Virus record (IMG/VR): IMGVR_UViG_3300021961_000248
Coordinates: 1 to 38,311 of that record
Source: a virus
Length of the DNA stretch: 38,311 nt
Direction: 5' to 3' (one strand)
Part shown: positions 16,923 to 38,238 of the stretch, piece after piece
How the letters are laid out: each line of letters starts with the position of its first letter
How positions within the stretch are numbered: the stretch's first letter is position 1
The notes under the pieces: generated by a model
Seen by the model: only the letters and a program-made list of their open reading frames with translations
Told to the model about the DNA's origin: nothing
The model's database searches: none
Program-made: the position numbers and the translations under genes

Positions 16923-19900
16923 ATGGCAGACTCTCCAACAAATTCAAAAACCAATTTCGAAGTTGTTACAGATAGTAACGGCACAAAGATTAGAAGATCC
17001 GTTGCTCATTTACCTTCATACTACAGAACAGATAATAACCAACGGTTTTTAGGAAGCACAGTAGATCAATTAATTCAACCAGGCGAGTTGGAAAGACTTG
17101 ATGGATATATTGGAAGAAGATATGCTTACACTCATAAAAATACAGACAATTATGTTCCAAGTACTAACAAATTAAGAGAAGATTATCAATTAGAGCCCGC
17201 AGTAACTTACATTGATCGAGATAACTCATCAATTAATCCTGAAGATCAGGTTAAATTTACAGCAACCTATGACGATTTTATAAATCAAATCAAATTCTTT
17301 GGAGGTAACGTAGACAATCATGACAGACTATCTCGAGAAACAGTGTATGCTTGGAATCCGGCTATAGATTTTGACAAACTCGTAAATTATCGAGAATACT
17401 ATTGGTTACCAGAAGGACCAAATCCAATTCTAATTCCATCAGTAGGTACAGGTGCTGTTACAGAAATAGATGTAACAAGTGACGGTCTCGCTTATAAATT
17501 TTCTAATATTAAAGACATAAAAAATCCAACATTAACTCTTTATAGAGGAAACACTTATAAATTTTTAGTTAACAGTCCAGGAACTACTCCAGGCACACGT
17601 GGTCGTCATCCATTCTACATAATGACGGAACCTTTCAAGACTGGTATAGCGGTGGATGGATCAACATCTGTGTTATACAACAATGGAGTGACCGGCAACG
17701 GCGCTTCTAACGGTATTGTAACTTTTGAAATACCATCTAATGCTCCTGACGTACTCTATTATCAATGTAGTACTCATGCTAGTATGCACGGTGTAATAAG
17801 AATTAAAACTATTTCAGCAACCACAAACATTGATGTTGCCAACGACATAATTGGAGCAAAAAATTATACCTCAGGGTCTGGGGTAAAATTTTCTAATGGT
17901 ATGAAAATTAAGTTTGGAACCAATGTGACAGATAGCGCCACATATGCAGGTAAACAATTTTATATCGAAGGAGTAGGTGAAGACATTACATTAACCAATG
18001 TTGAAGATCTAATCACACCAGAGAGTTATTCTGAAGAGACCACAACATTATACGACGAAGTTGCATATGACTCGAGACCGTATTCAATCAGCTTTTATCG
18101 ACCAAAGGATCCAGATTATATCACAATTAAGAGAGATTCTGTAGATAGAAATGCCTGGTCAAGATACAATAGATGGTTTCATCGAGCAATCATAGAAGCT
18201 ACTGCCAATGCTAACGGTTATACTGCTAATCTAGTTGAAGGAGATCGAGCAAAAAGACCAATTATAGAATTTGATTCAGGCCTCGCATTATATAATCACG
18301 GCACTGTTGCAAAAAAAAGCATTGCACTTATCGACGATAAAACAACAGATGTTATGAGCACTATTCCTAACACTCCAGGATATATTATTGACGGTGTTCC
18401 ATTAGTGAACGGTATGCGAGTGTTATTCACAGCTGACACAGATTCTCTCGTAAAGAATAAAATTTATGTGGTTAATTTTGTTACTGTAGGTTCTAGATCT
18501 GTGATATCTTTAACAGAAGCTATAGATACCACCCCAGAAGATGGCCAAACGGTGTTTGTAGAATTAGGTACCAGCAATCAAGGAAAAACCTATTATTATG
18601 ATAGTAACACAAAGAGTTGGAAAACAGGACAAACCAAAACTGCTCTAAACCAAGAGCCCCTATTTGGTATGTGGGACGATCATCACACACCATTTGATGA
18701 CACAACAGTGTATCCTAACAGTACATTTACAGGTGCTAAAGTTTTTAATTACAAAGTTTCAGCGTCGTCTCCTATAGACACAGTGTTAGGTAAACGAGTA
18801 AAATACAATACAATTAACAATGTAGGAGACATTGTGTTTGAAACAGACCTTTCGTCTGGCTCATTCTCATATATTTTCAACAAAAACAGTTATACAAAAA
18901 AATATGGTGCAGGACATCTACACTATACCACAGGTAGACTCACACATAATTCAAAGAGTGCCTGGATTAAAAGACCAGCACAAAGCCATCAGAGAGTAGT
19001 TCGAACATACACAGTAGATGCCAAAGAAAAAAGATTGTTTGCGATAGATGTTTTTGCTAATTCAAAAGATCTTGCAGAGTTAGAAGTGTCAGTGGATGTA
19101 AACCACCTAAGAAAAGATTCAACCATAGACTACACACTGGTCAATGGAACCGTACATAAATTTGTTCAATTCAGCAAGGATTTATCTGTAGGCGATTTAA
19201 TTAAATTAGAATGTTACAGTAAAACAGCCAAACAGTCTGCTGAAGGTTTATACGAAATTCCAGAAAATATTTCAACCAATCCATTCAACGAACAGATAGC
19301 AACTGCCACATTTGGTCAGATATTAAAACACGTTCACGACATTCATGAAAAGAACATTGACATTGTGGGACCAATGCCAGGATCATCCAATCTTCGAGAT
19401 CTACCAGATGTGCGATTAAAAGGTGGTACAATTTTACAGCACCTAGGACCATTGCCTGCGGCTTTTTTTAATTTAATTGACACAAACGCAAATTTTGTAA
19501 GTGCATTAGATTATTGTCGTGATGAGTATGTTCGATATAAAGAAGCATTTTTAAACTACGACACAGGTAAAACCTATGAGGGTACTGTCGCACAGCGAGT
19601 GGATGACATCATAGCAGGACTAGCTAAAGATAAAAATTATAGTTTTCCTTTCTTCTACGAAGATATGGTGGGTCATGGAGAAAATGTTTCTATAAGGAAT
19701 TATACAGTTCAAGACGAAAGCGAAGTAACGTATGCGATAGATTCACAATTTGACGTCACAAAAGCGAGTAATCGAGCAGTATATGTTTATCTTAACAATA
19801 CATTATTATTGAGAGGCACAGACTACTCATTCAGCACTACTGAAGACAGTGTTACAATTGTTACTACACTTGCAGTCGGCGATAAGTTAGTGATTAAAGA

Positions 19901-22900
19901 TTACACAGATACTACAGGCAGTTTCGTTCCTCCCACTCCAACCAAACTAGGAATGTATCCAAAATTCAAACCAGAGTTGGTGTCAGACAACACTTATAGA
20001 ACAGCGACCAACGTGATCGTGGGACACGATGGTTCAAGAACCAAAACATATGGAGACTTCCGTGATGATATTCTATTAGAATTAGAAAAAAGAATCTATA
20101 ACAACTGTAAGACTGCGTATAACGACACTCTTCTGCCAGCATCAGAAGTTATACCTTCTGGGTTTGTAGATACAGATTACACAGCTCAAGAAATCACAGA
20201 CATTTTAAGCACAGATTTTTATGCCTGGGCAGGTAAGAATGCTGTAGACTATCAGATAAACTCTACATATTCTGCCGCGGATCCGTTCACATACAATTAT
20301 AAATTCAACAAAGATATCAATGGCGGTCAGTTACCAGGCTACTGGAGAGCGATATACAAACATTTCTATGACACAGATCGTCCGCATACTCATCCGTGGG
20401 AGATGCTGGGTTATACAGAAAAACCTTCTACCTGGGAATCTCGATATGGACCAGCACCTTACACATCTGGCAACTCCGTGATGTGGGAGGATATTGCCGC
20501 AGGATACGATTCACCAGCTGGAAAGACCAATGAAAGATATGTCAGAGATGGGTTATTAAATCGTTTGCCTGTAAATGAAAATGGAGAACTATTGAATCCA
20601 ATTCAAACAGGATTAATTGACACATACGCAGGTGTAGGCATTGCAGAAAGATGGCAGTTTGGAGATCAAGCACCAGCGGAAACTGCTTGGCGCAGAAGCT
20701 CAGATTATGCTTACGCTGTTATAAAATTATTAGCACTAACTCGTCCTGCTAAGTTCTTTGGAGTATTTTTTGATAACTCAAGATTGACTCCAAACACAGC
20801 AGGTAATTTAGTTGATTTAGATACAGGTGTAAGACAAGATATTAAAACAGCACGATACCATTTAGAAACTGTAACAAATTCTGCTACAGGTATAGTAACA
20901 AGATATCAGACAGCAGGATATCAACCTTTTATAGTTAATTATTTGATTAAAAATACTCTTGATCCTGCTGTGTATTACTATGATAAAATGAAAAATCTAA
21001 GTGTGCAGTTGGCATACAAATTAGGTGGATTCACAGATAAAGACAATTTAAAAATATTAACAGATTCATTTTCACCAGGTAGTACAGCAGGCTCTCAATT
21101 TATTCCAGATGAAAATTATAAGATTGTTTTCAGAACATCTAATCCTGTTGCAAAATATGATTATTCAGGTGTGTTGATAGAAATTAACACAGACATTGGT
21201 GCTGATGGATCAAGTTTAGATGGCGGTTATAAAATCATTGGATACAATACTCTGAGACCTTACTTCAAATATCTTCAACCTATTAGAAACGGAAACAGTT
21301 ATTCGATTACTATGGGTAATGGTAAAGCCGTTATATATAAAAATTACAGTGTCAAAGAATCTATTTTAACGTACGGATCTGTTTTAAAAACACCACAAGA
21401 AGTTGTAGACTTTTTAACAGGGTACGGAAAGTATCTTGAATCACAAGGTTTCCGTTTTGAAAAATTCTCCAATGAAATAAATGCAATAGCCAATTGGGAA
21501 ACTTCTGCTAGAGAATTTGTGTATTGGACTCGCCAAGGGTGGGCACCAGGTTCAGCGATCACTCTATCGCCTGCAGGTAAAGGTTTTGAATTAGAAACAC
21601 AAAACAGCACAATAGGAAAACTTAAAAACTTATTAGGTGAATACACAGTGTTAGATGCTGGTGGAAGAACCATGAGTAAGAAAAGTATTAGTACTAAAAG
21701 AGTAGGTACAACTTTTGATATTGAGAGTACAGATCCTGAAAAAGGTATTTTCAATGTAGTACTAAACGCTGTGCAGAAAGAACAAATTATATTATTTGAT
21801 AATATCACAGTATTCAACGACATATTATTAGAGTTATCTACTGGGTTCCGTCAGGCAAGATTAAAACTAGTAGGATGGAAAACTGCTAATTGGAATGGTG
21901 ATTACTATTCACCTGGATTTATTTTTGATGAGGCAAAAATTAGTATTTGGTCTCCAAACACTGATTATGCAGTAGGAGACACAATAGAACACCAATCTAA
22001 ATTTTACGTATCAAAAACTAATCACAACTCAGGATCTAAATTTGATTACGAGCAGTGGAATAAAAATGATTCAAAACCAGCCGCTCAGTTAATTCCAAAT
22101 TTTGATTATAAAATATCACAATTTAATGACTTCTATAATTTAGAAACTAATAACTTTGTGGAAGGACAACAGAAACTAGCTCAACAATTAGTCGGATACC
22201 AATCAAGAGATTATTTAGAAAATCTTTTTGTCAACGACATAACCCAGTATAAATTTTATCAAGGTTATATCAGAGAAAAAGGTACAATGAATGCAATTGA
22301 TCGATTGTTAAAAGCAAGATTTGAAGGTGAAAATATTTCATTGTCTCTATATCCAGAATGGATGATCGGCGTAGGAGAATTTGGAAACAGTGACAATACA
22401 AAATCAGTACAAATTACAATGGATGATACAAAATTTACTGACAATATACAAAGTATTGAAATACTCGATAATCCTACTAATAATTCAGACTGGTCAAAAT
22501 CTATACGTGTTCTAGTAGATGATTTATATAATAAACCACTTGATTATGTGGCTGACAGTTTCTCTCGTTATGATTATTCTTCTGCAGGAATAGACAGAGA
22601 CGTAGTACAAATATATAAAACAGCAGGTTATCCTCGATTGCAAGATGTACAACACACAGCATTTAAAGTCAAAGATATTACAAATCTTGATGTTAATTTA
22701 ATTGAAGACAACGATTTACTGTGGATTGCTAATAAAGAAAATTTAGACTGGGACGTTCAACGAATTTCAAAAACAAATATAAAAATTGTAAGAATTGAAA
22801 ATGTTAATGAAGGACTACAGTTACAAGTTACATTGGATAAAGATCATTCGTTTACAAAAAACATATATTTTGCAATAAGAAATTCTGAATTTACTAATTT

Positions 22901-25900
22901 AAATGGTGTTTATAAAATTTCATCAGTGCCTTCATCACGAAAACTTGTTTTTGATTTTTCAGGAACAAATCAGATCATAGCATTATCACGGTTAGCAGAT
23001 GGCAGTACATTAGACACATTTGGTGATGTTTATAAATTAGTTTCTGTTAGATTAGCAAGTATAGATAATGTGAATGATCAATTAAATTATTCAGAATATC
23101 AAGATATTGATATAGTAAACGAGAAGAATGGAGATCGAGTATTTGTTGATTCTAAGTCTAACGATGGATTATGGAGAATTTATGAAAAATGTGATCCATA
23201 TACATTTAAATTATTAACTTCGCCGGACAGTAACAATGACCAAGATTTTGGATATCGTATAGTTGCTCGAAATGATGGAAGAACAGTGGTTGTTTCTGCT
23301 CCATCGCGAGGACAAGGAACCATACATTTCTTTTTTAGAAGACAAAGCACGGCGGGAACACAGTACACAATTCAAAGCAGTACCACAATGACTGATGCTA
23401 GTGAACTAGTGAGCAGTCGATTAGGAGAAAGTTTATCTATAAGCACCGATGAGAATTTTGTGGTTGCAGGTGCGCCATATACAGATGCAGTAGGCGGAGA
23501 TGGCAGTACAAGATACACGGAATCGGGTCTAATAAAAATTTATATTTGGAATAGTACTACAAAATCATATTCTCTATTAAGCACATTAACTTCACCACAC
23601 GACGGAAGCACTAATTTAGAAAATGCAAATTTTGGCTGGCATCATACTATCGCTGAACCTAGTGTTTCTAGTACAATATCTACATTAGAGAAGTATCTAT
23701 TTGTTTCTGCTCCAGGACACAATAATGACAATGGTGTTGTTCATATGTATACCTGGGGGGTTGGCGTAGACGGTTCAACCTACGATACGTGGACGCACAA
23801 TGTTTCAATTACTTCGTCAAATGCAGGCAGTAATAATAGATTTGGTCATAGAGTAGCAGTTAGCGATAATGGAGACATTCTTGCAGTTGCGGCAAAATCT
23901 CCAGGCAATGCAGGTGCAGTAGAAATTTTCACAAGAGGAGGCCACACCAACGACGGAAGCACGGTTAATATTTGGACTCATCGACAGACTCTGACAGGAG
24001 TTTCTGCTGATGGTACATCATTAAACACTAACTTTGGCGAAGATATTGCGATGAGCAAAGATGGTACAACACTTATTATAAGTTCTCCTAATCATGATAA
24101 AACAGATCAAGCAGATGCAGGTGCTGTGTATTATTACAAATGGAACGATGATGGAAGCACCAACACTTATACATTAAAACAAACTCTAGAATCTCCAGAA
24201 GATCAAATTAATATGAAATTCGGTACTTCATTAGATATCAACGATGCAGGTACGAGAGTAGTAATTGGTGCTGAAAACTTTTCAAACGCAAGGACAATGA
24301 AATTTGATTTAGGTGCCACAACATTTGATTTACAAGATACAAACATTGTAGATTCAAACATTGGTTCGGGTGGTGCATTTACTGCCACTATGTATGATAC
24401 AAAATTTGTTATTGATGATAAGATTGTTACAACTTCAGTATCAGTTAATGACGATTTTGGTAGAGGTGTATGTATCACAGACAATCAGTTGTATGTAGGT
24501 GCACCAGACGACGATTCTGCAAGTGGTGTTGTAAACGACGGAACTGTAAGCGTGTTTGATTGTAAGACTGCAGGTACGTATGCTTGGGCAGTGTTAGAAA
24601 CTGAAACAGCTTTAATAAACAGTACAACAATTAGTTCTGGATTTATTTTTGATAGAAGTAAAAATGCAATTATAGATTATCTAAACTATTATGATCCTGT
24701 GAAAGGAAGAATATTAGGCCCTGCTGACAGAGAAATTAATTACAAAACCGCCTGGGATCCAGCAGTATATAATATTGGATCAACATCAAAAGTAGTCAAC
24801 CCATCTACGGCGTGGGATGAAGAGAAAATAGGCACAGTATGGTGGGATCTGTCGACAGTAAAATGGTTATGGTATGAGCAAGGTGGACAAGAATATAAAG
24901 TCAAGAACTGGGGAAAACTGTTTCCTGGATCGTCAATAGATATTTACGAATGGGTAGAGTCTACACTACTTCCAAGTGAATGGGCACAGAGATCAAATAC
25001 TGTAACAGGATTAACTCAAAATATTTCAGGCCAACCTTTACATCCAGACAATACAGTATTCACCGTTAAACAAAAATATAATTCTACTGTAGACGGTTTT
25101 ATAAACTATTATTATTATTGGGTTAAAAATTCTGTATTCTTACCTGATACAGCGAAGAGTGTAGTGGTAAGAAAAAATACTACAAGCTATGTGTCTAATT
25201 TAATCTCTAATCCTTTTGCAAGTGGTATAAAATATTTTGCTGTGTGTGATACAAACAGTTTAATTACTTGGAATATTAAAGATTCTTTAATAACTCAAAA
25301 TACTGTATTAAATGTTGATTATAAAACTAATACAAACCAGTCTCAGACACATAAAATATGGAAAATAATTCAAGAAGGTAATAAGGATGATCGACCTAAT
25401 GCTTCAATAGAAAAAAAATGGTGGGATAGTTTAATTGGATCAGACGAGGCAGGTAATCAAATACCTGATATTGATCTTCCAGTGAATCAACGATATGGAA
25501 CAAGTGTGAGACCTAGACAAAGTTGGTTCACAGATAGATTTGAGGCTCTTCAACAACTAATAGATTACACAAACTCGGTGTTGTTAAAAAATCAATTAGC
25601 AGGCACAATTAATTTTAAAAATTTAAATTCAGAAGATCCAGAACCTACAGCACAATCAGGATTATGGGATGCCACTGTCGATACCTATCAAGATTTAACT
25701 TTTGTTAACACAGGAGAATTAAGTGGCACAGTGAATTATCTGGTCAGAGCTGATGAGCAAAACTCAAACGGTTTTTGGGCGATATATCAATGGACAGGCA
25801 CAGAATTCTCAAGAACTCGAGTGCAGACCTACAAAACTTCTGCCTACTATCGTTTGGCAGACTGGTATGCTTCGGGCTATGACACAAATACAAGGATTGA

Positions 25901-28900
25901 TGTTCAAGTTAATTACGAGTATAACTTAGATGAATTGTCATTAGATACGGATCAAATAGTTAAAGTTAAAAATGCTGACACCGGCGGATGGAAGTTGTAT
26001 GTAAAAACTAATGACGGATGGTCCAACGTTGCTACACAAAACGGTACAATTCAAATTAAAAAAGATATCTATGACTATAACATTCAAAATATTGGATTTG
26101 CTGGAGGAGATACATTCGACGGTAACTTCTTTGATAACGTTCCAACTACAGAAACTCGTAAAATTTTAACTGCATTGAGAGATGACATATTTGTAGGAGA
26201 TTTAAAAGTTGAATATAATAATATTTTCTTTACATCATTAAGAAACGTATTAGAACAACAATTGTATGTGGACTGGCTGTTTAAAACCAGTTTTATAAAT
26301 GTAACAAATACATTTAGACGATTGGATCAAAGAAAAACTTATACAACAGGCACAGAAAATTATGTAGAAAGTTATATCAGCGAAGTAAAACCGTATCACA
26401 CAAAAATCAGAGAATACAAAGTAGGCTATACCAACGTTGAAACACAAGATGGAATCAATACAGACTTTGATAACCCTACATTCTATGATGCTTCTGAGGC
26501 AAGAATTAGATCAATTGATATAAACGGTCCAGCAGATTCTACACGAATCACAGAGTATCCGTGGAAGTTCTGGATAGACAATTACAAAAAAACCATTGGT
26601 TCAATCACTGTGTTCAATCAAGGATCTGGCTATACACAGGCACCTACAGTCACTATCACAGGCGGTGGCGGAACAGGTGCTACTGCTGTTGCAAAAATCA
26701 GCAATGGTAAAGTTGTTTCAATCACAGTTACTAATGCAGGATCTGGATATACATCCACTCCTACAGTTGCAATCACAGGCGGAGAATCTGGAGGAAGCAC
26801 CCCAGCAAATCAAGCCAAGGGTTATGCTAATTTAGTCAATAGCACAGTGAGAGACCTAGAGGTTACAGTTAAGTTTGACCGAGTGGCTCGAGATGCTACA
26901 GTGTACACTTATACTGTAGGCACAACTTACGAATATGCAAGTTTAATAAGATACAATAATGAATTATATCGAGCAACATCAAGATTTACTGCCACTAGCG
27001 ACTTTGATTCTCATTTAGTAGACCTAACAAAATTAAGAGGTGATGAATCTTATATTACTGCCGCAGAGAGAACACTCGGATTATACACACCAACAGCAGG
27101 AATGGCAGGCAATGAGTTAGCACAGGTTATGGAGGGCATAGATTACGGTGGAGTTCAAGTTACAGGACTTGCATTCTCTAATGATCAAGGATGGGACAGA
27201 TCGTCGTGGTACGATTCACCATGGGACTCTTATGGATCTTCAAATGTGAGAACATTCTATGGAGATGGAAGTACAGTTGCTTTCACTTTCTCAACAGCAC
27301 CTGCTACTACAAAAGTTTATACAGTTTATTATAACGGAGTAAGACAAACAGCAGATGTGTTCAGAGGTGATGGATCAACAAAAACATTTACATTAAGTTC
27401 AGCACCAGGTAATGGCGTCAAAGTTGAATTTATTCCTTTTGACGAAGACAAAGTACTTACACCCACTGATGATAGAATTTTAGATTCTTTGATATCAGGT
27501 GGTCAGTTTACGAGTGCTGTGGGATTAAATCCAGCAGACATTAACCTTGAAGGTGATGCGTTTATTACACCTGACACCTCGTATGCACCAGAAGAGAATG
27601 TTCCAGGGTCAATCTTTGACACAGTGGATATTAAAGTTTATACGTCACCATTATCTGGTGTACCATTTATTATAAACAAAACATACATCGGTAATGGAAG
27701 CACAACAACATTTAATATAGGACAAAAACCCGGCACACAAGCAGGTGTTTTTGTGTCGGTCAACGGTGTAGCACAAACACTTAACTCAGAATTCACAGTA
27801 GATGTTCAAGCAAAAACTGTGACATTAACTCCTGCACCAGCAGTAGATGCGATAATCAACATTAAGAGTTTTGCAATATCAGGATCTAATTATGTGCTAT
27901 TAAACGAATTCACAGGAGATGGAAGTACTAGAAGTTTTGCTACCAGTGCTAGAGATACATATCAATTAGACAGCTCGTTGCCTCAGTTATATGTTACAAT
28001 AGATGGCGTACCTACTACAAGTTATACAACTTCAGAACAGAACAAAATAGTCACAGTAACATTTACTTCTGCACCATCGGCTAATGCCGCAATTCAAATT
28101 GCTGGATTCAACCAAACACCAGGTACTCGAGCATACAATGAATTAAGATCCCAAGCAATAACTTGGGACGGAGCAACACTAACATATGGTTTAACATATC
28201 CTCCAGGAGCAATTGGACCATATGCTGGGTTGACTATCGTAGAGTTAAATGGAAAAATTTTGCGAGGTCCAGACAACACTTATTATTCTGGGGATGGCAC
28301 AACCACAGCATTCAAATATGGAGTGGTATCGGGACTGTCAGATGGTAGCACAGTAGATCCTGCTAAAACAATCACATCTGCCGCACAGATTGAATTATAC
28401 AAAAATGGATCTAAACAGATGCTTAACACAGATTATATTGTGAACATTGGATCTGAACAGGTAGAATTTGTGACAGCACCAGCTGAAGGTGATGTCGTTG
28501 CTATCACAACACTGGTAGATAACCATTATAAAATTTCCTCAACAGATTTAAACATTAACACAACACAGATATCTGCAGATGGTATCACATTTACATCAGG
28601 AGATGTATTAACTGTGACAACATTTAACAATGCCGTAGGATCTAAAATTAGAAGAGAAGTGTTAGAAGGCAGAGCATCAGGGGAGTTTTATCTTGCCGCT
28701 GAACCGTATGATTACAACTATGTTTACGTAATGTTGAATCAATCACCTCTAGTATACGGACACGATTTCTTATTAGAAGGCAATAAAATCACAGTGTCTG
28801 GAAGAACTATAAGCACTGCTGACAGAATAGATGTTCTATATTTTGCTGTGGATGGATCAACAAATGCAACTGGATACAGAATTTTTAAAGATATGTTGAA

Positions 28901-29540
28901 CAGAACCTTCTACAAACGAATTTCAAAAAATAACACAACAACATTGGCGGCAGATGTAAATGACGAATCAACAACAATCACAGTTGCAGACGGATCAGTA
29001 TTATCAATACCAAGTGCATCAGCAAATCAACCAGGTGTTATAATGATAGACAAAGAAAGAATTGAATTTTTCACAAAAACAGGTAACACGTTAGGACAGA
29101 TCAGACGTGGTACTCTTGGAACAGGAATTAAGGCACACTCTTCTGGAGCAGACGTGGTAGACTTTGGAAGCAATCAAATTGTGCCTTATGCAGATACTAT
29201 CTATACCAAAACATATACAGGTGACGGTAGTACTGCTTCATTTGCCACAACATATGCACCGTCCTCGGCTAGTGAGTTAGACATTTTCATTGGTGGCCGA
29301 AGATTGATAGCAACTAGTGAGGACGGTAGCACTGTAAATTACATTGTGGACGGATCCACAGCATCAGTCACATTTACAGCGGTTCCTGCCTCAGGTACTC
29401 AAGTAAAAATACTACAAAAACGCGGATATGTGTGGTATGATGCAGGTGTATCCACAGCGGCAAACGGTAAAGGACTACAACGAGCAACAACTAACCAAGC
29501 TAAATTCATAGCAGGAGAACCAACAAATGCACCTGAATAA
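16923..29540 (+). CDS. giant mosaic virion structural protein (4205 aa), gp7 position
   Basis: This gene fills a third of the window. It follows gp6 where T4 has gp7, and marine T4-like phages often carry a very large structural protein here; a baseplate or fibre-network role is inferred. No signal peptide or membrane segment is visible. Domains seen by eye: an N-terminal module with [16 protein letters not shown] and [20 protein letters not shown] (1-160); a cupredoxin-like domain (200-300); a long tail-wedge-like region with no recognised domain (300-2100); a seven-blade FG-GAP-type propeller (2105-2560); another unrecognised region (2560-3220); two GSGYT beta repeats (3234-3290); and GDGST modules (3440-4190). 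The tetrapeptide DGST occurs about fifteen times. The reading frame is intact over 12.6 kb. The end overlaps the next ATG by 14 bases. Confidence 0.85.
17520..17820 (+). other. cupredoxin-like domain within the giant protein
   Basis: Residues 200-299 of the 4205-residue protein read as a small beta sandwich with the classical type-1 copper ligands: H229 (RGRHPFYI), then C282, H285 and M288 in [17 protein letters not shown]. The C-x2-H-x2-M loop is two residues shorter than in plastocyanin (C-x2-H-x4-M) but keeps ligand order. Similar domains occur in other marine phage structural proteins. Copper binding is predicted from residues only. Confidence 0.75.
23235..24600 (+). repeat. seven FG-GAP-type propeller blades within the giant protein
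   Basis: Seven units begin with FG or LG at residues 2109, 2167, 2237, 2307, 2371, 2433 and 2512. Each follows the pattern (F/L)G-x3-(A/S/I)-x5-G-x2-(L/V)-x-(V/I)-(G/A/S)-(A/S)-P..., ending in a strand such as [14 protein letters not shown] or GTVSVFD. The spacing is 58 to 79 residues, as in integrin-alpha and FG-GAP propellers. Seven is the number needed to close a propeller. The fold is predicted, not shown. Confidence 0.75.
26622..26795 (+). repeat. GSGYT-type beta repeats within the giant protein
   Basis: Two units start at residues 3234 and 3273, 39 residues apart: [17 protein letters not shown] and [17 protein letters not shown], joined by the strand [10 protein letters not shown]. This motif is frequent in structural proteins of marine phages and probably forms a beta-roll or beta-helix turn. 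Confidence 0.8.
27249..29430 (+). repeat. array of GDGST modules at the C-terminus of the giant protein
   Basis: Six modules begin with the strand motif (F/Y)-x-G-(D/N)-G-(S/T)-T-x2-F, with the first Gly at residues 3447, 3482, 3590, 3665, 3790 and 4100. Most continue with a strand of the type V-x-V-x2-(N/D)-G and end with V-x-F-T-x-A-P followed by a short hydrophobic strand. They look like tandem beta-sandwich modules used in phage fibres and baseplate arms. Spacing is irregular (35 to 310 residues), so other material is interspersed, including a [12 protein letters not shown] segment near 4040. Confidence 0.75.
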
Positions 29541-30215: not shown

Positions 30216-31709
30216 ATGCCATATACAGTAAACAAAACAGATACATCAGCAACACCAAACAGTTATACGGTACAAGATTCAATTCTTAATATACAAACTG
30301 ATTTAAGTTTTGTAGGAAAAGGATATGCTGGATATGGAGAAGTTATTGCTGAAAACTTTTTACATCTATTAGAAAATTTTGCAGATCAAACTGCTCCGTC
30401 AAAACCTATTACTGGACAACTTTGGTATGATAAAACTGATGAAAGATTAAAAGTATACACAGGATCAACATTCGCTCCTGCAGGTGGAGCAAGGTATCAA
30501 TCAGATGCACCTGCAGGACAAGTTGCTGGAGACATTTGGATTGATTCTGATACAGGACAGTTATATTTTTACAATGGGTCGTCTAATGTTTTAGTAGGAC
30601 CTCCTTCAACTTCGGGAACCACAAACGGTTTTACATATGAGACAATCAAAGATTCCACAGATGCTGATCAAAACATCACAAATCTTTATAATGACGGTAC
30701 ACGAATTGCTATTATATCAGAAGATTCATTTACACCAAAATCTGCAATTTCAGGGTTTGCTACAATTACATCAGGTATAACTTTATCCACTTCTGTGTCA
30801 GGCAACAAATTTACAGGCACGTCTACAGACGCAGACAAATTAGGTGGAGTTGCCGCGGCTAATTATCTACGAAGTGATTCCAACGACACCACATCAGGCA
30901 CATTAGGTATTGTAAATGATGCTGGATTAACGGTAGGTGCTGACAACGATTTTAAAATTACAATTGACGGAACAGGAGCCGTTATTTCAAATCTAGTTGT
31001 AGACACAGATATTACATTTAAAGTCAATGATGGAGGAACAACTGCTACAGTTATGACTATTGATGGTTCAGCATCAAGAGTAGGAATTGGAACGATCACA
31101 CCTACAACAAAATTAGATGTGTCAGGTACAGTAAATGCAACTGCTTTCACAGGACCATTAACAGGTAATGTTACAGGAAACATTACAAGTGCAGGAATAA
31201 GTTCTTTTTCTATAATGAATGTTACAGGAACATTAACATCTGCTGGTATAGTACCATCTGTAGATGCCACGTATGATATTGGCACAAGTCTTAAAGGTTA
31301 CAATACAGTTTATGCTAAAGCAACATCAGCTCAGTACGCTGACTTAGCAGAGGTTTACAAATCAGATCACGAGTACGAGCCAGGCACAGTGGTGATATTT
31401 GGAGGACCAAAAGAAATCACAATATCTCAATGGGCCAATGACACACGAGTAGCAGGTGTTGTTTCTACAAATCCAGCCTACCTAATGAATGACAAATCAG
31501 AAGGTATTGCTGTTGCACTTGTGGGAAAAGTGCCTTGTAAAGTAGAAGGAGTAATTGAAAAAGGAGATTTATTAACAACTAGTGGCAACACAGCCGGCTA
31601 TGCTAAAAAAGCAATTGAACCTAAATTAGGATCTATTATTGGCAAGGCTATGGAAGATCATCGATCAGCAGGTACAGGCACGATCTATGTATCTGTAGGA
31701 AAACACTAA
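30216..31709 (+). CDS. tail-fibre-like protein, paralogue 1 (497 aa)
   Basis: This is one of three related fibre-like proteins in the window. The N-terminal 100 residues (VGKGYAGYGEVIAENFLHLL, then GQLWYDKTDERLKVY) are shared with the genes at 31720 and 36628 and probably attach the fibre to the tail. The middle is Thr/Gly/Ser-rich with short beta strands (GVAAANYLRSDSNDTTSGTL, then GIGTITPTTKLDVSG, a common fibre motif). The C-terminal 130 residues (AQYADLAEVYKSDHEYEPG, RVAGVVSTNPAYLMN, GKVPCKVEGVIEKGDLL) are shared with the 36628 protein and resemble the chaperone-like ends of phage appendages (peptidase G2 type). That last resemblance is tentative. A host-recognition role is inferred. No strong ribosome binding site is visible. 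Confidence 0.8.
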   Translation: MPYTVNKTDTSATPNSYTVQDSILNIQTDLSFVGKGYAGYGEVIAENFLHLLENFADQTAPSKPITGQLWYDKTDERLKVYTGSTFAPAGGARYQSDAPAGQVAGDIWIDSDTGQLYFYNGSSNVLVGPPSTSGTTNGFTYETIKDSTDADQNITNLYNDGTRIAIISEDSFTPKSAISGFATITSGITLSTSVSGNKFTGTSTDADKLGGVAAANYLRSDSNDTTSGTLGIVNDAGLTVGADNDFKITIDGTGAVISNLVVDTDITFKVNDGGTTATVMTIDGSASRVGIGTITPTTKLDVSGTVNATAFTGPLTGNVTGNITSAGISSFSIMNVTGTLTSAGIVPSVDATYDIGTSLKGYNTVYAKATSAQYADLAEVYKSDHEYEPGTVVIFGGPKEITISQWANDTRVAGVVSTNPAYLMNDKSEGIAVALVGKVPCKVEGVIEKGDLLTTSGNTAGYAKKAIEPKLGSIIGKAMEDHRSAGTGTIYVSVGKH

Positions 31710-31719
31710 ATATAGGTAT

Positions 31720-33129
31720 ATGGCGTACGTAATTAATAACACAAGAGGCACAGCAATCACCACAATCACTGACGGTACAGTGGATAACACCACATCGTTA
31801 CAGTTATTTGGAAAATCATATTCGGGGTTTGGTGAAGGATTAAACGAAAACCTTGTAAAATTATTAGAGAATTCAGCATCATCAGCGGCACCCACTGCTC
31901 CATTAGCAGGCGAGCTATGGTTCGACACATCAACATCACAAATCAAAGTGTACGATGGCACGAGCTGGAAGCCCACAGGTGGCGCAAAATCACAAACAAC
32001 ACAACCAACTTCTCCGTCAGCAGGAGATCTTTGGTCTGACAGCACAAACAAACAATTATATTTCTACACAGGAACTACTTGGCAATTAATAGGTCCAGAC
32101 TATACAGCAAATCAAAGTTTATCAGGGTGGAAAATTGAAACAGTAAATGATTCAGGGGGAATAAGCAAAGTTATTTCTTCTATGTATGTGGCTAACACAA
32201 GAACTGCAATACTTTCTAAAGAAACATTTACTCCTGGCTCAGCAATAGCTGGTTTTGCTACTGTGTATGCAGGACTCACACTTAATTCAACACTAGGTGC
32301 TGTATACCAAGGTGCTAATTCAGCTCAATCAGCGGCATTAGATGTGTCATCTACATCAAACACATCAGCAACAATTATTGCTGGAGGAAATTTCCTAAGA
32401 TCAGATCAGGCAGACACCACAACAGGTGCTCTTACTATCGATACAGATTCAGGAATTATCATCGGTGATGCACAAGAATTATCAGTAACAGTTACATCTG
32501 GAAATGTAACTTTAGCTCAAACTAGACAAGACAAAGATTTATCTATCACAGTAAACGACGGTGGAGTCACAAAAACTCCTTTTGCGATCACAGGTGCTGA
32601 TGGTAATATTGTGATCACAGGAGATGTGTCAATCACAGGAAATTTAAATATTAGTGGAGAATATAATTCGTCAGTATCAAATATTTCCACATATGATGAT
32701 GCATTTATTAAATTAAATTCTGGAAACTCAGAGGCAAATTCAGGTATTATTGTTGAGACTTCAGACACAGACGATGCAAGATTATTCTACAGTTATTTAG
32801 ATAACCATTGGTCAGCAGGCGAAGGAGGAGTATATTCTCAGGTTATTCGATTAGCAGATGCTGTCACAGACGGTAATGCTAATAAAGAAAAAGTTTTAAA
32901 AACAGATTCATCAGGTCGAGTTGTAGCAACGTGGTTTGCTAGACCGTCTGTAGAAACAATAACAACTTCCAACACAGCAGTAACTGATGTCCCGTCAACA
33001 GGAGCAGTTGTTAATTTAATAAACAGTGAGCAACCAAAATGGGGCTCATCAGAAAAATATGTTTCCACTGTAGCACCTACTTCGGGTGATGGTAATGATG
33101 GAGACTTTTGGTTCGTAAGGGAGGCTTAA
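31720..33129 (+). CDS. tail-fibre-like protein, paralogue 2 (469 aa)
   Basis: The N-terminus (MAYVINNTRGTAITTITDGT, then FGKSYSGFGEGLNENLVKLL and GELWFDTSTSQIKVYDG) is clearly related to the proteins at 30216 and 36628. A second copy of the 'G-D-L-W-x-D-S-x2-K-Q-L-Y-F-Y-x-G' unit follows directly. The centre contains fibre-type strands (NIVITGDVSITGNLNISGEY). Unlike its paralogues, it lacks the YADLAE C-terminal domain and ends in a short module (PKWGSSEKYVSTVAPTSGDG, then DGDFWFVRE). Its end may therefore be exchanged or may contact the following glycine-rich protein. It starts ten bases after the preceding stop, with only a weak AGG as ribosome binding site. Confidence 0.8.
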   Translation: MAYVINNTRGTAITTITDGTVDNTTSLQLFGKSYSGFGEGLNENLVKLLENSASSAAPTAPLAGELWFDTSTSQIKVYDGTSWKPTGGAKSQTTQPTSPSAGDLWSDSTNKQLYFYTGTTWQLIGPDYTANQSLSGWKIETVNDSGGISKVISSMYVANTRTAILSKETFTPGSAIAGFATVYAGLTLNSTLGAVYQGANSAQSAALDVSSTSNTSATIIAGGNFLRSDQADTTTGALTIDTDSGIIIGDAQELSVTVTSGNVTLAQTRQDKDLSITVNDGGVTKTPFAITGADGNIVITGDVSITGNLNISGEYNSSVSNISTYDDAFIKLNSGNSEANSGIIVETSDTDDARLFYSYLDNHWSAGEGGVYSQVIRLADAVTDGNANKEKVLKTDSSGRVVATWFARPSVETITTSNTAVTDVPSTGAVVNLINSEQPKWGSSEKYVSTVAPTSGDGNDGDFWFVREA

Positions 33130-33135
33130 TCTCCT

Positions 33136-34566
33136 ATGCCAACTATTGTTAAAACTTTTACCTACACAGGCACTAAACAAGAGGTAGCAATACCAGCAGG
33201 CACAGTTTCTATGAACATCTCTATGTGGGGTGGTGGAGGCGGTGGCGGTGGTAGTGATTCTGCTGGTCCTGGAAGACCTGGAGCCGCAGGACATTATGTA
33301 ACAAAATCCTCATTTGATTTAAAACCATACATAGGACAAACTCTTACAGTCGCAGTGGGCGGCAGTGGAGCAGGTGGTTCATCAGGTGGTGGTGCCGCTG
33401 GTGGAAAAAATGGAAAGAGTTTAACAGGATATTCAGGAGGACGTGGAGGTAATTCAGGACCAACTCCTTTCTCAGGATCGGGCGGTGGAGGTGGTGGAGC
33501 CTCTGTTATACAGATCAACGGTGTTGATATCGCAATAGCAGGTGGCGGTGGCGGCGGTGCTGGAGACGGACAACATTCAGCGGGCACAGTGGGTATAAAC
33601 AGCAATTCAGCCACAGCAGGCTCCCCAAGCACACTGGGAGAAAACGGTGCTGATCACTCTGGAGACGGAGCAGGTGGAGGTGCAGGAGGCGGTGGAGCCA
33701 ATGGCGGACGAGGTGGCAACGGAGGCAGTGGAGACAATGGAGGCACAGGTGGTTATTCAGGATCAAATCTTGTACCAGCTGGTGGCACAGAGAACAACGG
33801 GTCAGGCAGAACACCAGGAGGAACAGGAGACGCTGTGTATCAATCTGGAGTTGCTGAAGGAGCAAGAGCCTCAACATCAGGCGGAAACGGTTTAATAGTA
33901 TTAACTTTTGATATTGGAGTTCAAGCAAAATATAAGGTAGCAGGTGATTGGAAAGATACTAATAATTTATATTATAAAGTATCAGGCGCATGGAAACAGA
34001 TTACAGCCGCTTATGTAAAAGTCGCAGGAGAATGGAAGGCTATGTTTAACTCAGGTATTGAATTCTTGTCAACATCAGCAGGATTTGGTGATACAGTAGG
34101 TGGGTCATCGTCAGGCACACCAGGAGGTGGCGGCGGATGTTTCCTTGCAGGCACACCGATCACAATGGCAGATGGTACAACCAAACCAGTTGAACTGGTA
34201 GATTTACGAGATGAAGTTGCTGTGGGTGGTTATGTATTTGCTACAGGTAAGTTTTTAATTGATAATCTTTATGATTACAAAGGTGTTAAAGTATCTGGAG
34301 AACACATGGTAAAAGAGGACGATGTTTGGATGCGAGTTAAAGACAGTGCTCACTCAGTATCGATGGGCGATGATGAACACGTGGTATATGTGTTTGGAAC
34401 AGAGTATAGAAGAATCATTATTAACGGTATAGAGTTCACTGACTACTTTGAGATCAGCGAAAAAGAAGAATTATTCAATCACGGTGATAAATTTTTTGGT
34501 ATTTGGCAGGATCATGATAGACAAATTCATGAAAAAAATGTTAAAATATTAAATGATGGAAAATAG
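33136..34566 (+). CDS. glycine-rich tail protein with C-terminal Hint domain
   Basis: This 476-residue protein has three parts. Residues 1-40 (FTYTGTKQEVAIPAGTVSMN, then ISMWGGGG) start a glycine-rich domain known from phage tip proteins. Residues 33-255 are more than a third Gly in runs, comparable in composition to polyglycine-helix adhesins of the gp38 type. Residues 260-310 carry three short YKV-x-G-x-W-K repeats. From C335 the protein reads CFLAGTPITMADG, then KPVELVDLRDEVAVGG, VSGEHMV (H390) and RIIINGIEFTDYFEI, the pattern of Hedgehog/intein (Hint) self-processing domains: a nucleophilic Cys after a glycine run and a block-B His. No C-terminal His-Asn junction exists, so splicing is not expected; cleavage before C335 is. 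The ATG has GGGAGG eleven bases upstream. It overlaps the next gene by 14 bases. Confidence 0.82.
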   Translation: MPTIVKTFTYTGTKQEVAIPAGTVSMNISMWGGGGGGGGSDSAGPGRPGAAGHYVTKSSFDLKPYIGQTLTVAVGGSGAGGSSGGGAAGGKNGKSLTGYSGGRGGNSGPTPFSGSGGGGGGASVIQINGVDIAIAGGGGGGAGDGQHSAGTVGINSNSATAGSPSTLGENGADHSGDGAGGGAGGGGANGGRGGNGGSGDNGGTGGYSGSNLVPAGGTENNGSGRTPGGTGDAVYQSGVAEGARASTSGGNGLIVLTFDIGVQAKYKVAGDWKDTNNLYYKVSGAWKQITAAYVKVAGEWKAMFNSGIEFLSTSAGFGDTVGGSSSGTPGGGGGCFLAGTPITMADGTTKPVELVDLRDEVAVGGYVFATGKFLIDNLYDYKGVKVSGEHMVKEDDVWMRVKDSAHSVSMGDDEHVVYVFGTEYRRIIINGIEFTDYFEISEKEELFNHGDKFFGIWQDHDRQIHEKNVKILNDGK

Positions 34567-35230
34567 TTTTTATCAAGGAAAACAAGGCGAATGCTTCAAG
34601 TTATTAGAGCAAAACTTTGAAAAAATCAGACAAGAGTATATCAACAAACAGGACAAGATATTTTTAGATCCTGAAGATTTTTCTGACGGAGTGCGTGGAC
34701 TTGCTGACGACTTCTCAGACACAGATCGTCCGGGTGACTATGTCAAAGGAGATTGGAGAGCACTGGGCATAAGTTCTGGAGATCACGAGGGACAGTCCTA
34801 CGAGGATTTCCCTACTCTCTATGATATACTAAGACAATTCCCCTATAAGACCAATGTGGCATTTATGGTGGTAGGACCGAACACATCTATAGGCACTCAC
34901 AAAGATGACGAGGGCGGATGGAGATTTCAAATGTGTTTTGATGACGGCGGCGGAGATGACAGCGGAATGTACTATCAGGATTTAACGACCAAGGAAAAAA
35001 GATTACACACATTCAAGACAGGCAATCAGTTCGCTTTTAAACCAGGCGAGCAACCACACAACGGATTCAATCGCAATCCAGGCGAGAGATTGACGCTGTT
35101 GATCGATTTTTACAAAGAGTCTGAGTACACTCCAGAAGCATACGAATCCTATCTAAAGAACTATGACGAGAAGTTTGAAGGTCTAAAAGAGTTAGCGGAG
35201 TTGTATGAATCAAGAAAACAAAAAGCCTAA
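34553..35230 (+). CDS. aspartyl/asparaginyl hydroxylase-like 2OG-Fe(II) oxygenase
   Basis: This 225-residue protein belongs to the 2OG-Fe(II) dioxygenases, closest in pattern to the aspartyl/asparaginyl beta-hydroxylase group. The motif GTHKDDEGGWRFQMCF gives H116-x-D118; PHNGFN gives the distal H169; and GERLTLLIDF gives R179 for 2OG binding. It is distinct from the oxygenase at 2436, which has a different motif context. Members of this group hydroxylate Asp or Asn in proteins, among other substrates. It is in frame-overlap with the Hint gene upstream (14 bases) and the dehydrogenase gene downstream (26 bases), so the three are likely made together. No ribosome binding site is visible, and two adjacent ATGs (34553, 34556) are possible starts. 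Confidence 0.85.
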   Translation: MMENSFYQGKQGECFKLLEQNFEKIRQEYINKQDKIFLDPEDFSDGVRGLADDFSDTDRPGDYVKGDWRALGISSGDHEGQSYEDFPTLYDILRQFPYKTNVAFMVVGPNTSIGTHKDDEGGWRFQMCFDDGGGDDSGMYYQDLTTKEKRLHTFKTGNQFAFKPGEQPHNGFNRNPGERLTLLIDFYKESEYTPEAYESYLKNYDEKFEGLKELAELYESRKQKA

Positions 35231-35786
35231 GGCATTGATCACAGGACATACCCGCGGTATAGGACGAGCGATATATGATCGTCTCACCAGAGAAGGGTAT
35301 GAGTGTGTGGGATTGAGTAAGAGCACAGGACACGATGTATTGGATAGAGAGGACGAGATTGTGGAAAGAATACAGGACTTTGATTACGTGGTACTAAATG
35401 CATATGCTCAGCACTCGCAGTTGAATATGTTGAAAAAGATTGTGGATCGTTATTCCAACAAAGCACTTGGAGTGGCAGTGATAACCAGCACGTCAGGCAC
35501 ACCCGAGGGAGCAGACGAAGATATGCAGGACGAGGAGTATATAGAATACAAAAGAATAAAACGAGAATTGATACAATACATAGGACAGATACAACAGGCC
35601 ATTGTGGATAAAAAATTGAACATCTATGATGTGTGTCCAGACACAGTGTACACTGATATGACTGTGGGACTTTGGGAACAGTATCCTAAACTACAGCCGG
35701 CGGATGTGGCAGAGTGTGTGAGCCTGTGTTTCCACACAAAAGACTATAACATTAACAAGATTGTGATACAAAAAAATGCAGACTAG
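35205..35786 (+). CDS. short-chain dehydrogenase/reductase-like protein
   Basis: This 193-residue protein has the classical SDR features: a nucleotide-binding TGHTRGIG (13-20), the NAYA motif (65-68, NAG-like), a serine segment TSTSG (94-98) and Y115-x3-K119 in YKRIKREL. The set suggests an NAD(P)-dependent oxidoreductase on a sugar, alcohol or cofactor. It is shorter than most SDRs (about 250), with little after the sixth strand (VCPDTVYTDMT) beyond a final helix, so the substrate-binding end may be reduced. The GGAG seven bases before the ATG supports the start, which lies inside the end of the oxygenase gene. Metabolic SDR genes close to tail genes often act on surface sugars, but the substrate here is unknown. 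Confidence 0.82.
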   Translation: MNQENKKPKALITGHTRGIGRAIYDRLTREGYECVGLSKSTGHDVLDREDEIVERIQDFDYVVLNAYAQHSQLNMLKKIVDRYSNKALGVAVITSTSGTPEGADEDMQDEEYIEYKRIKRELIQYIGQIQQAIVDKKLNIYDVCPDTVYTDMTVGLWEQYPKLQPADVAECVSLCFHTKDYNINKIVIQKNAD

Positions 35787-36258
35787 GCCCTGGAGCAGAG
35801 ACACGGACTACGACACACTGGTCAAATGGTGGAATCAGCACGAGTTTGGAGTGGTGCCTAGAGAAGTGCTACCACCAGATGGGATCATTGTGGAAGAAGC
35901 CGGTGTTCCCCTGTGTGCGGGCGGACTGTACATAGGCATGGGCACGGAGTTTGCTTTCATGGAGTGGGTAGTGGCAGACAAAGATGCCAACAAACGACAG
36001 TTGCACAGAGCTCTAAGAATGTGCGTGGATGCCCTATTTGAGTTGGCTCGCAGTAAAAATATGCAACTGGTATTCACAACTACATCAGAAGGTGCTCTGC
36101 AGAAGAGATACATCAAATATCACGGCATGGAATTAACAGAAAATCACGTCAAAACTTTTTTAAAAGACCTTACAAAAGACAAGCATTATGCGTCCAAAAG
36201 CCTGGATTGGATATCAGACGATACCCAGATTAGCATACAGCGAACAAATAATAAATAG
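35776..36258 (+). CDS. GNAT acetyltransferase-like protein
   Basis: This 160-residue protein resembles GNAT acyltransferases, which move an acetyl group from acetyl-CoA to an amine. The strand FAFMEWVVADKDANKRQLHR is followed by a helix (RALRMCVDALFELARSKNM), the strand QLVFTTT, and a final RYIKYHGMELTENHVKTFLK resembling the 'F-Y-x-x-x-G-F' end of the fold. The usual pyrophosphate loop (Q/R-x2-G-x-G/A) is not clear; the segment DANKRQLHRA occupies its place, so activity is uncertain. It overlaps the dehydrogenase gene by 11 bases and completes the cassette before a probable promoter box at 36250. Confidence 0.7.
   Translation: MQTRPWSRDTDYDTLVKWWNQHEFGVVPREVLPPDGIIVEEAGVPLCAGGLYIGMGTEFAFMEWVVADKDANKRQLHRALRMCVDALFELARSKNMQLVFTTTSEGALQKRYIKYHGMELTENHVKTFLKDLTKDKHYASKSLDWISDDTQISIQRTNNK
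36250..36257 (+). promoter_or_regulatory. late-promoter-like box before the small paralogues
   Basis: AATAAATA, one mismatch from TATAAATA, lies at the very end of the GNAT-like gene. It stands 22 bases before an ATG at 36280, with AAGGA (36263-36267) between them as ribosome binding site. The spacing to the start codon fits a late promoter with a leader of about 17 bases for the small gene pair and the third fibre gene. Confidence 0.5.
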
Positions 36259-36457: not shown

Positions 36458-36628
36458 ATGATTACACAACAAGAAACAGCAGACTATATTAATGCAAATA
36501 TAACCTCAGCATTGACAGTGGAAGAAATTAACACTGTTAAATCAATAATTAATAAAGACCTTGCTGTAGTACTAATCAAATTACTAGGTGATGTAAGTAT
36601 GTTAGTTGAAATTAGGGACGCAGAATAA
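36458..36628 (+). CDS. tiny structural-region protein B (56 aa), paralogue of previous gene
   Basis: This 56-codon frame starts one base after the stop of its neighbour and ends in TAATG, sharing one base with the start of the third fibre gene. The product begins MITQQETADYINANITSALT and contains LAVVLIKLLGDVSMLVEI, aligning without gaps to the end of the 36280 product. The tandem arrangement points to an old duplication, since identity is limited mainly to the motif. Translational coupling to the fibre gene suggests a job connected with that fibre. No known family is recognised. Confidence 0.8.
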   Translation: MITQQETADYINANITSALTVEEINTVKSIINKDLAVVLIKLLGDVSMLVEIRDAE

Positions 36629-38238
36629 TGGCATATTCAATTAATAACACAGCAGGCACACTTTTAAAAACTCTAGCAGATGGCACTATCGATACCACCA
36701 CGACAGATCTTGCTCTGTTTGGTAAAGGCTATGCAGGATTTGGTGAGCGACTGAATGAGAACCTCGTCAAATTATTAGAGAATTTCGCCAACACTTCCGC
36801 ACCCTCAAACAAACAAAAAGGACAACTTTGGTATGATACTTTAAACAATCAGATCAAGGTATGGAACGGCAACAAATTCAAACCAGTAGGATCATCCACT
36901 AACTCCACTGCATCGCCCACCAACGCCAACACAGGGGATTTTTGGTTCGACACTAACAACTCACAATTCTATGTGTACAATGGCACTGCCTGGACACTAA
37001 TTGGACCAACTACTGTTTCAGGATCTGGAGTCACACAAGTTTCGTCAGAAACAGTGGCGGACAGTGTAGGAGTAAACAAATCTATTCTAAAATTAATTAC
37101 TAATGATATCATTGTAGGCATTGTGTCCGCAGAAGAATTCACACCAGGCACAGCAATATCAGGATTTGCGACAGTCTACAAAGGTATCACTCTTTCTACA
37201 GCAATATCAGGAAACAAATTAACAGGCACAGCCACAGATGCAGATGCATTGGGCGGAGTCGCCGCGGCAAACTATCTAAGATCTAACGCCAATGATACCA
37301 CATCAGGCACTTTAGGAATTCTTGCTGATGGCGGATTAACTGTAGGTGTTGGATCAGATCTTACAGTATCAGTATCTGGTAGTGATGCTGTTATAAAAAA
37401 CAACACATTGAACGGTGACATAAAATTTGATGTAACTAATTCTTTAGGATCAACCACAGTTATGTATGTGGATGGTCAACTAAGAACCTGTAATATTACA
37501 GATTTAATTGTATCAGGTAATTTAACAGTTAATGGAACAACTACAACATTAAACACATCTAGTTTATCAGTAGAAGACAACATTATTGAGTTGAATAGAA
37601 ATGTATCTTCAGCGGCTGGAATGCCAAATTACACAGGACTAAAAGTTAATCGAGGATCAACATCATCTGTTACTGAGCAAGACCTATACTGGGTATGGGA
37701 CGAAACGTTTGCCGATGATGGTACAACTATATATGGTAACGCAGGAGGTGCTTGGACAGCGTTCAAATCAGGCGGCGGCGGTGAGATGTCAGCACCCACA
37801 CTAGTAGATATTCGAGCTAACATAGTACACGCAACATCAACAGCGGCACAATATGCCGATCTAGCAGAGAGATATGAGACAGATGTTGCTGTAGAGTGCG
37901 GTGATGTAGTAATATTAGGTGGAGATAAAGAGATTACAAAGTGTATGAAAGAGTTAGACGATGCTGTATTTGGAGTGGTTTCTGAAAATCCAGCGTTTTT
38001 AATGAATAAAGACGCAGGAAACGATGATTCACACCCTATGATAGCACTCAAAGGACGTGTAAGAGTTAAAGTAAAGGGCACAGGATCTGCAGGTGCTCGT
38101 ATCGTTTCTGCAGGTAACGGAGAAGCAAGAGTAGCAAATCTAGAGGAATGTACCGCTTTTAATACCCTAGGTAGGCTGTTGAAGGCTAAATACTCACAAC
38201 AAACAGAATTACACGAATGCGTGATAGGAGTAAAATAA
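36628..38238 (+). CDS. tail-fibre-like protein, paralogue 3 (536 aa)
   Basis: The N-terminus (MAYSINNTAGTLLKTLADGT, then FGKGYAGFGERLNENLVKLL and KGQLWYDTLNNQIKVWNG) is close to that of paralogue 2. The middle segment (GVAAANYLRSNANDTTSGTL) and the C-terminal YADLAERYETDVAVECGD domain match paralogue 1. In between is the fibre motif LTVNGTTTTLNTSSLSVEDN, widespread in marine phage fibres, followed by a WVWDETFADDGTTIYGNAGG insertion that the others lack. The C-terminal domain continues with VFGVVSENPAFLMN and VRVKVKGTGSAGARIVSAGN. It begins inside the stop of the tiny gene before it. The mixed relationship to both paralogues suggests module exchange between fibre genes. Confidence 0.82.
   Translation: MAYSINNTAGTLLKTLADGTIDTTTTDLALFGKGYAGFGERLNENLVKLLENFANTSAPSNKQKGQLWYDTLNNQIKVWNGNKFKPVGSSTNSTASPTNANTGDFWFDTNNSQFYVYNGTAWTLIGPTTVSGSGVTQVSSETVADSVGVNKSILKLITNDIIVGIVSAEEFTPGTAISGFATVYKGITLSTAISGNKLTGTATDADALGGVAAANYLRSNANDTTSGTLGILADGGLTVGVGSDLTVSVSGSDAVIKNNTLNGDIKFDVTNSLGSTTVMYVDGQLRTCNITDLIVSGNLTVNGTTTTLNTSSLSVEDNIIELNRNVSSAAGMPNYTGLKVNRGSTSSVTEQDLYWVWDETFADDGTTIYGNAGGAWTAFKSGGGGEMSAPTLVDIRANIVHATSTAAQYADLAERYETDVAVECGDVVILGGDKEITKCMKELDDAVFGVVSENPAFLMNKDAGNDDSHPMIALKGRVRVKVKGTGSAGARIVSAGNGEARVANLEECTAFNTLGRLLKAKYSQQTELHECVIGVK

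Follow-up and report, generated by a model that had tools for sequence, protein, structure and literature searches.

A mini-Hint domain with a GNAT-fold partner as a candidate protein-processing module of uncultured marine phages

Introduction

Post-translational modification of phage virion proteins has been little explored. A locus that brings the subject into view lies at positions 33136-36258 (+ strand) of the IMG/VR virus record IMGVR_UViG_3300021961_000248, whose 38,311 bases constitute the window analyzed here. It consists of four open reading frames (ORFs) that overlap successively by 14, 26 and 11 bases. Their products are a glycine-rich protein ending in a Hint domain, an aspartyl/asparaginyl hydroxylase-like oxygenase (AspH), a short-chain dehydrogenase/reductase (SDR) and a GNAT-fold protein. 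What holds these genes together, and is it the phage tail that they serve? A preliminary description, made from the sequence alone, regarded them as a candidate tail-modification cassette. The reading preferred here, to which a probability of about 0.55 is assigned, is that they represent a protein-processing module, conserved and coupled in translation, with the Hint domain and its GNAT-fold partner at its center. Sequence comparison and structure prediction provide the Hint fold, the GNAT linkage, the optional insertion of AspH and SDR, the conserved catalytic residues and the spread over different carrier proteins.

A mini-Hint domain expected to cleave rather than splice

The C-terminal domain of the 476-residue protein clearly has a Hint fold in its AlphaFold model (pLDDT, predicted local distance difference test, ~94 over the domain). 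In structural comparisons this model ranks closest to BIL2 of Tetrahymena (6y75; VIA Z 14.8, root-mean-square deviation 1.8 Å over 109 residues; Foldseek E 5e-5), followed by inteins and Hedgehog (1at0, Z 12.4). Pfam evidence for Hint on the window protein is weak (PF05203, E 0.009-0.05, under the cut-off). Both the Hint and the GNAT assignments rest on structure, the predicted models being confident and matching those folds.

Across the 93 domains compared, C335 (the block A Cys), H390 (the block B His), W398, T435 and D436 are invariant, which together with the structure agrees with the earlier designation of C335 as the block A cysteine. Of 106 proteins, 105 have Gly before this cysteine, and three more distant ones that were found later have Arg. 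Given the invariance of Cys335 and His390 and the modeled Hint fold, autoprocessing at C335, as the preliminary description had proposed, is plausible.

At the opposite end of the domain, the His-Asn position of inteins is taken by the invariant pair T435-D436, followed by Y437, and a +1 nucleophile is absent in the 93 sequences; neither the C-terminal His-Asn of splicing inteins and A-type BILs nor the +1 Cys, Ser or Thr of inteins is present. Structural alignments end at about model residue 111, which is D436, and the matched PDB structures stop short of the helical tail formed by residues 437-476. Considering that Thr-Asp replaces His-Asn and that no +1 nucleophile is available, established Hint chemistry leads to the expectation of N-terminal cleavage between Gly334 and Cys335 instead of splicing, with the predicted N-S acyl shift falling between bases 34137 and 34138. 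A comparison with the PT-HINT domains of polymorphic toxins, which would imply a toxin-immunity function, was rejected, as just ~40 helical residues follow the Hint domain.

Compared with known systems, the mini-Hint shares with BIL domains, including BIL2 of BUBL1, the predicted fold, the block A Cys, the block B His and non-conserved flanking proteins, but it differs in its Thr-Asp end, the missing +1 nucleophile, a length of ~102 residues, a helical tail of its own and a fixed GNAT partner. With the Hedgehog Hog domain it has in common the predicted fold, a Gly-Cys-Phe start, a C-terminal position from which release of the N-terminal partner is expected, and an extra C-terminal region. Its tail is ~40 residues long, and the sterol/adduct ligation to the N-terminal fragment that characterizes Hog would be hypothetical for the mini-Hint. 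C-terminal self-releasing domains on fibre or adhesin proteins are also seen in the phage fibre chaperones Peptidase_S74 and Peptidase_G2, which differ from Hint in fold and chemistry and are not known to have dedicated enzyme partners.

Tandem Hints were also observed in L032:3931-5985, L075:850-2904 and L079:431-6079, where an A-type BIL with the C-terminal sequence VVHN stands immediately before the mini-Hint (VVHN-K-G/CF, the slash marking the Gly-Cys junction). Within the glycine-rich carrier group, the tandem of BIL and mini-Hint is confined to loci that lack AspH and SDR.

Linkage of the mini-Hint to the GNAT-fold gene

Viral contigs were searched with each protein or its profile, and profiles for each of the four families then served to annotate the recovered loci anew. 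Among 98 distinct mini-Hint/GNAT pairs, 56 have the arrangement Hint-GNAT, 40 have Hint-AspH-SDR-GNAT, and two carry a second AspH. The GNAT gene follows the mini-Hint wherever enough downstream DNA is available, mini-Hints without it lying on contigs that end just downstream. The AspH subfamily occurs in the order Hint-AspH-SDR-GNAT, complete or interrupted by the contig end, in 49 of 49 viral contigs, so that the co-occurrence in relatives named as a check by the preliminary description was found, and its refuting condition, rare co-occurrence of the four genes in relatives, did not hold. The unit is nevertheless broader than that description supposed: the order is kept where AspH is present, but AspH and SDR are, on gene order, an optional insert between Hint and GNAT, both missing from more than half of the pairs, and the core of the unit consists of Hint and GNAT.

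Overlaps are found at 85-100% of the gene junctions in the recovered loci. Because dozens of diverged contigs show the same gene order and overlaps, and because pN/pS against the nearest diverged relative (L003) is 0.31 for Hint, 0.07 for AspH, 0.24 for SDR and 0.19 for GNAT, the cassette is not a chance arrangement; judged by these ratios, purifying selection acts on all four genes. In L244:6153-6884 and in L245, a second, diverged PF05118 hydroxylase gene is located between SDR and GNAT.

Scanning the genomes of 84,980 prokaryotic species turned up one full mini-Hint. It lies with the other three genes on a metagenome-assembled contig, presumably that of a phage. Among ~50,700 cultured-phage records (near-DNA and tblastn searches, in a set from which near-identical records may be left out), no match to the Hint, hydroxylase or dehydrogenase was obtained, and GNAT relatives were found only at 26-31% identity. 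Profiles of all four families likewise gave no match in positions 1-141,900 (96% of the genome) of the cultured pelagimyophage HTVC008M. The Hint-GNAT module was thus found in uncultured, mostly marine phages. No open-access paper describing the Hint-GNAT pair or the four-gene cassette was found; Hint/BIL domains, Hint autoprocessing and phage oxygenases are known, and what appears to be undescribed is the enzyme complement around the Hint domain and the Hint-GNAT pair.

A module that changes its carrier protein

Once the Hint part is removed, 14 groups can be distinguished among the N-terminal carriers, with no similarity detected between them. They include glycine-rich proteins, as in the window, and DUF4815 proteins of ~1,650 residues, the remaining groups being partly of unrecognized type. 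One carrier, with a C-terminal glycine zipper, is encoded between the portal and major capsid genes, and another is a LysM/transglycosylase protein; by such family and neighborhood evidence, several carriers are of clear virion type or context. Since Hint and GNAT occur together on these dissimilar N-terminal groups, the GNAT and other partners can be said to travel with the Hint domain and not with the tail fibre. The tail-specific role suggested by the preliminary description was therefore abandoned, the module being found on at least 14 unrelated proteins, the capsid-neighboring and LysM/transglycosylase carriers among them.

In the window itself, glycine-rich repeats and KVxGxWK repeats can be read directly in the carrier part, residues 263-306 match phrog_36019/25859, and the protein is probably a glycine-rich receptor-binding protein. 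The AspH-SDR pair is found on two carriers, the glycine-rich and the DUF4815 type, and the module itself is the sole sequence seen in common between them. On a joint Hint and GNAT tree, the distribution of the pair amounts to two changes, and a single origin followed by one loss may account for it. One DUF4815-like carrier (L242:3-4826) bears a Hint domain without the FTDYF motif, and AspH, SDR and GNAT still follow.

The partner enzymes

Three of the four products are the putative enzymes of the module. The oxygenase scores 28.1 bits against PF05118 (curated cut-off 22.6) and the dehydrogenase 34.1 bits against PF00106 (curated cut-off 26.6), so that, with Hint and GNAT recognized through their modeled structures, the four identities given in the preliminary description hold. 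The AspH shares with the PF05118 family the Fe-binding His/Asp/His and the 2-oxoglutarate (2OG)-binding Arg, and its residues H116 and D118 (H-x-D), H169 and R179 are invariant; no close solved relative was found. An Asp/Asn hydroxylase has been described as 'core to all PMPs', that is, the pelagimyophages (PMC7029224). Within PF05118, the AspH considered here forms its own subfamily, found solely inside the Hint-GNAT cassette and not in the part of HTVC008M searched. In the SDR, the nucleotide motif GHTxGIG and the catalytic S95, Y115 and K119 are kept, with G14, G18-I19-G20, S95, Y115 and K119 invariant. Like that of AspH, the SDR subfamily was confined to this cassette within the data searched.

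The 160-residue fourth protein has no significant Pfam match. Its AlphaFold model (pLDDT 92.5) matches GNATs in Foldseek (E 6e-7) and Ard1 in VIA (Z 15.6), and it shares with N-acetyltransferases of the Ard1/RimI type the fold and a conserved stretch at helix 4 that includes Y112. It differs from them in that its subfamily adjoins Hint throughout and in the absence of motif A from all 93 distinct GNAT-fold sequences. Because that motif is missing, ordinary acetyl-coenzyme A (CoA) chemistry should not be assumed; the usual acetyl transfer is uncertain, and the acylation envisaged in the preliminary description is doubtful. In phages of Cellulophaga and others, the genes of distant relatives (L107, L108 and L324-L344) come immediately after that of a conserved structural protein (GWxSFYSYxPD...) lacking Hint; in Cellulophaga phage phi46:3 the GNAT relative is gp113 and the structural protein gp112. 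For this reason the GNAT-fold protein probably acts with virion proteins.

Possible mechanism and alternative explanations

In the preferred processing module, Cys335 would attack the Gly334 carbonyl after translation in an N-S acyl shift assisted by His390. The carrier would then be released with a processed C-terminus, through hydrolysis or transfer to a nucleophile; splicing is not envisaged because the intein-type His-Asn end and the +1 nucleophile are absent. The GNAT-fold partner may act in maturation on the same protein or on its new terminus, and the hydroxylase and dehydrogenase, where present, may contribute further oxidation-reduction tailoring, so that, in the end, a virion protein would be shortened and chemically altered in the course of assembly. 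A role with virion proteins is the most economical reading, given the absence of GNAT motif A and the position of distant GNAT relatives behind a Hint-less structural protein.

Several observations weigh against this proposal. The CoA-pyrophosphate motif A, [QR]xxGx[GA], occurs in 0 of 93 GNAT-fold sequences, and in the alignment of 93 Hint domains no Asp or Asn distinguishes AspH-bearing from AspH-lacking loci. D131 of the GNAT-fold protein (Asn in most loci without the hydroxylase) and D85 stood out as candidate hydroxylase substrates, and the signal was too weak to use. Some carriers lack a recognizable family, and we infer the virion nature of the carriers as a whole. LpxO is a PF05118 member, which is why LpxO-like lipid hydroxylation was considered. 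The adjacency of an oxygenase also carries little weight by itself, since marine T4-like phages have many 2OG oxygenases; phage enzymes of this type have been proposed to serve DNA repair or been classed as metabolic genes (PMC9146016).

GNAT-fold enzymes act on acyl thioesters, and an unlikely alternative is that the Hint domain drives conjugation. The acceptor of the thioester would be the amine of a lysine or, as in Hedgehog, a small molecule or lipid; the GNAT-fold protein would present or activate this acceptor, and AspH and SDR would tailor it. The Gly-Cys-Phe cleavage motif and the C-terminal helical extension, which recall Hog domains, point in this direction, as does the loss of the CoA motif from the GNAT-fold protein. 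Moreover, the best structural match, BIL2 of Tetrahymena BUBL1, has been reported to conjugate a ubiquitin-like protein via an isopeptide bond without ATP (PMC8616854). GNAT relatives beside Hint-less structural proteins, however, need no Hint thioester there, which weakens the idea that the GNAT depends on one, and three related Hints have Arg at -1. The corresponding specific proposal, a self-activating, ATP-independent phage conjugation in which Hint turns the C-terminal Gly of a virion protein into a thioester, GNAT transfers it to an acceptor and AspH and SDR tailor the acceptor in some lineages, is given a low probability.

A simpler account, also improbable, is that of a self-removing C-terminal domain that aids folding in the manner of Peptidase_S74/G2 chaperones and then cuts itself off, the other genes being morons that act on host molecules and are linked for other reasons. 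The neighboring fibres do have Peptidase_G2-like regions, a gp5-like protein in the window has a Peptidase_S74 domain, and phage GNATs that modify host proteins are known, such as Rac of phiKMV-like phages (PMC7824862); yet GNAT keeps its place beside Hint on 14 unrelated carriers and in many different phages, and there is little reason to expect morons directed at the host to follow a single protein domain. Thr-Asp in place of the intein-type His-Asn could instead indicate that Hint chemistry has been lost and that the domain is a binding platform for three enzymes modifying neighboring fibres or host surface molecules. This appears very unlikely, given that the acyl-shift residues Cys335 and His390 are invariant in 93 of 93 domains across unrelated carriers.

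If the preferred processing module is real, it would provide uncultured marine phages with a general kit for maturation or conjugation, mobile between unrelated proteins and equipped with a dedicated GNAT and, in some lineages, with AspH and SDR. Phage genomes contain many 'auxiliary' oxygenases and GNATs, and for some of these it would offer a testable role; a compact Hint enzyme might also be obtained from it.

Genomic setting

The window is, on its gene content, a fragment of a T4-like myophage, as marked by baseplate proteins (gp25 and a gp5-type OB domain) and a homolog of the baseplate wedge of large T4-like phages. A near-DNA search with region 33136-36258 gave no DNA-level neighbor among cultured phages. 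The flanking ORFs at 30216-31709, 31720-33129 and 36628-38238 are paralogs of one another (E 1e-61 to 1e-105), all with tail-fibre-type PHROG matches. Their 37-39% identity, together with the ORFs of Table 1, corroborates the layout given in the preliminary description, namely four genes overlapping by 11-26 bases between tail-fibre paralogs.

Table 1. Features of the module and adjoining fibre genes (positions within the window)
Feature	Positions	Strand	Evidence
Glycine-rich carrier (residues 1-334) with C-terminal mini-Hint, 476 aa	33136..34566	+	ORF
Mini-Hint domain, C335 to D436, ~102 residues	34138..34443	+	Model, structure matches, invariant residues
Conserved helical tail past Hint, residues 437-476 (YFE...ILN)	34444..34563	+	Model helices; alignment conservation
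Aspartyl/asparaginyl hydroxylase-like 2OG-Fe(II) oxygenase (AspH), 225 aa	34553..35230	+	PF05118, E 2e-6, above cut-off
Short-chain dehydrogenase/reductase (SDR), 193 aa	35205..35786	+	PF00106, E 2.5e-8, above cut-off
GNAT-fold protein, Hint partner, 160 aa	35776..36258	+	AlphaFold model, Foldseek, VIA; phrog_17252, E 2e-17
Tail-fibre paralog, context outside the module	31720..33129	+	37-39% identity to 30216-31709 and 36628-38238
Tail-fibre paralog with Peptidase_G2-like C-terminus, context	36628..38238	+	PF11962, E 2e-4, below cut-off; paralogy

The C-termini of the fibre paralogs at 30216-31709 and 36628-38238 are Peptidase_G2-like, below the Pfam cut-off, and are possible self-cleaving chaperones near the Hint protein. 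A gp5-like baseplate protein (Phage_base_V) encoded at 10193-13015 ends in a Peptidase_S74 self-cleaving chaperone domain. In addition, positions 16923-29540 hold a single ORF of 4,205 aa, probably of baseplate or tail type, that begins 2 bases past the baseplate-wedge gene. Outside the window, L091:2-3743 (and L092) encodes a protein with tandem full BIL domains. Four 2OG-Fe(II) oxygenase genes (PF13640) that overlap one another come after it, so that Hint and oxygenase genes are neighbors here too, with an oxygenase of a different family.

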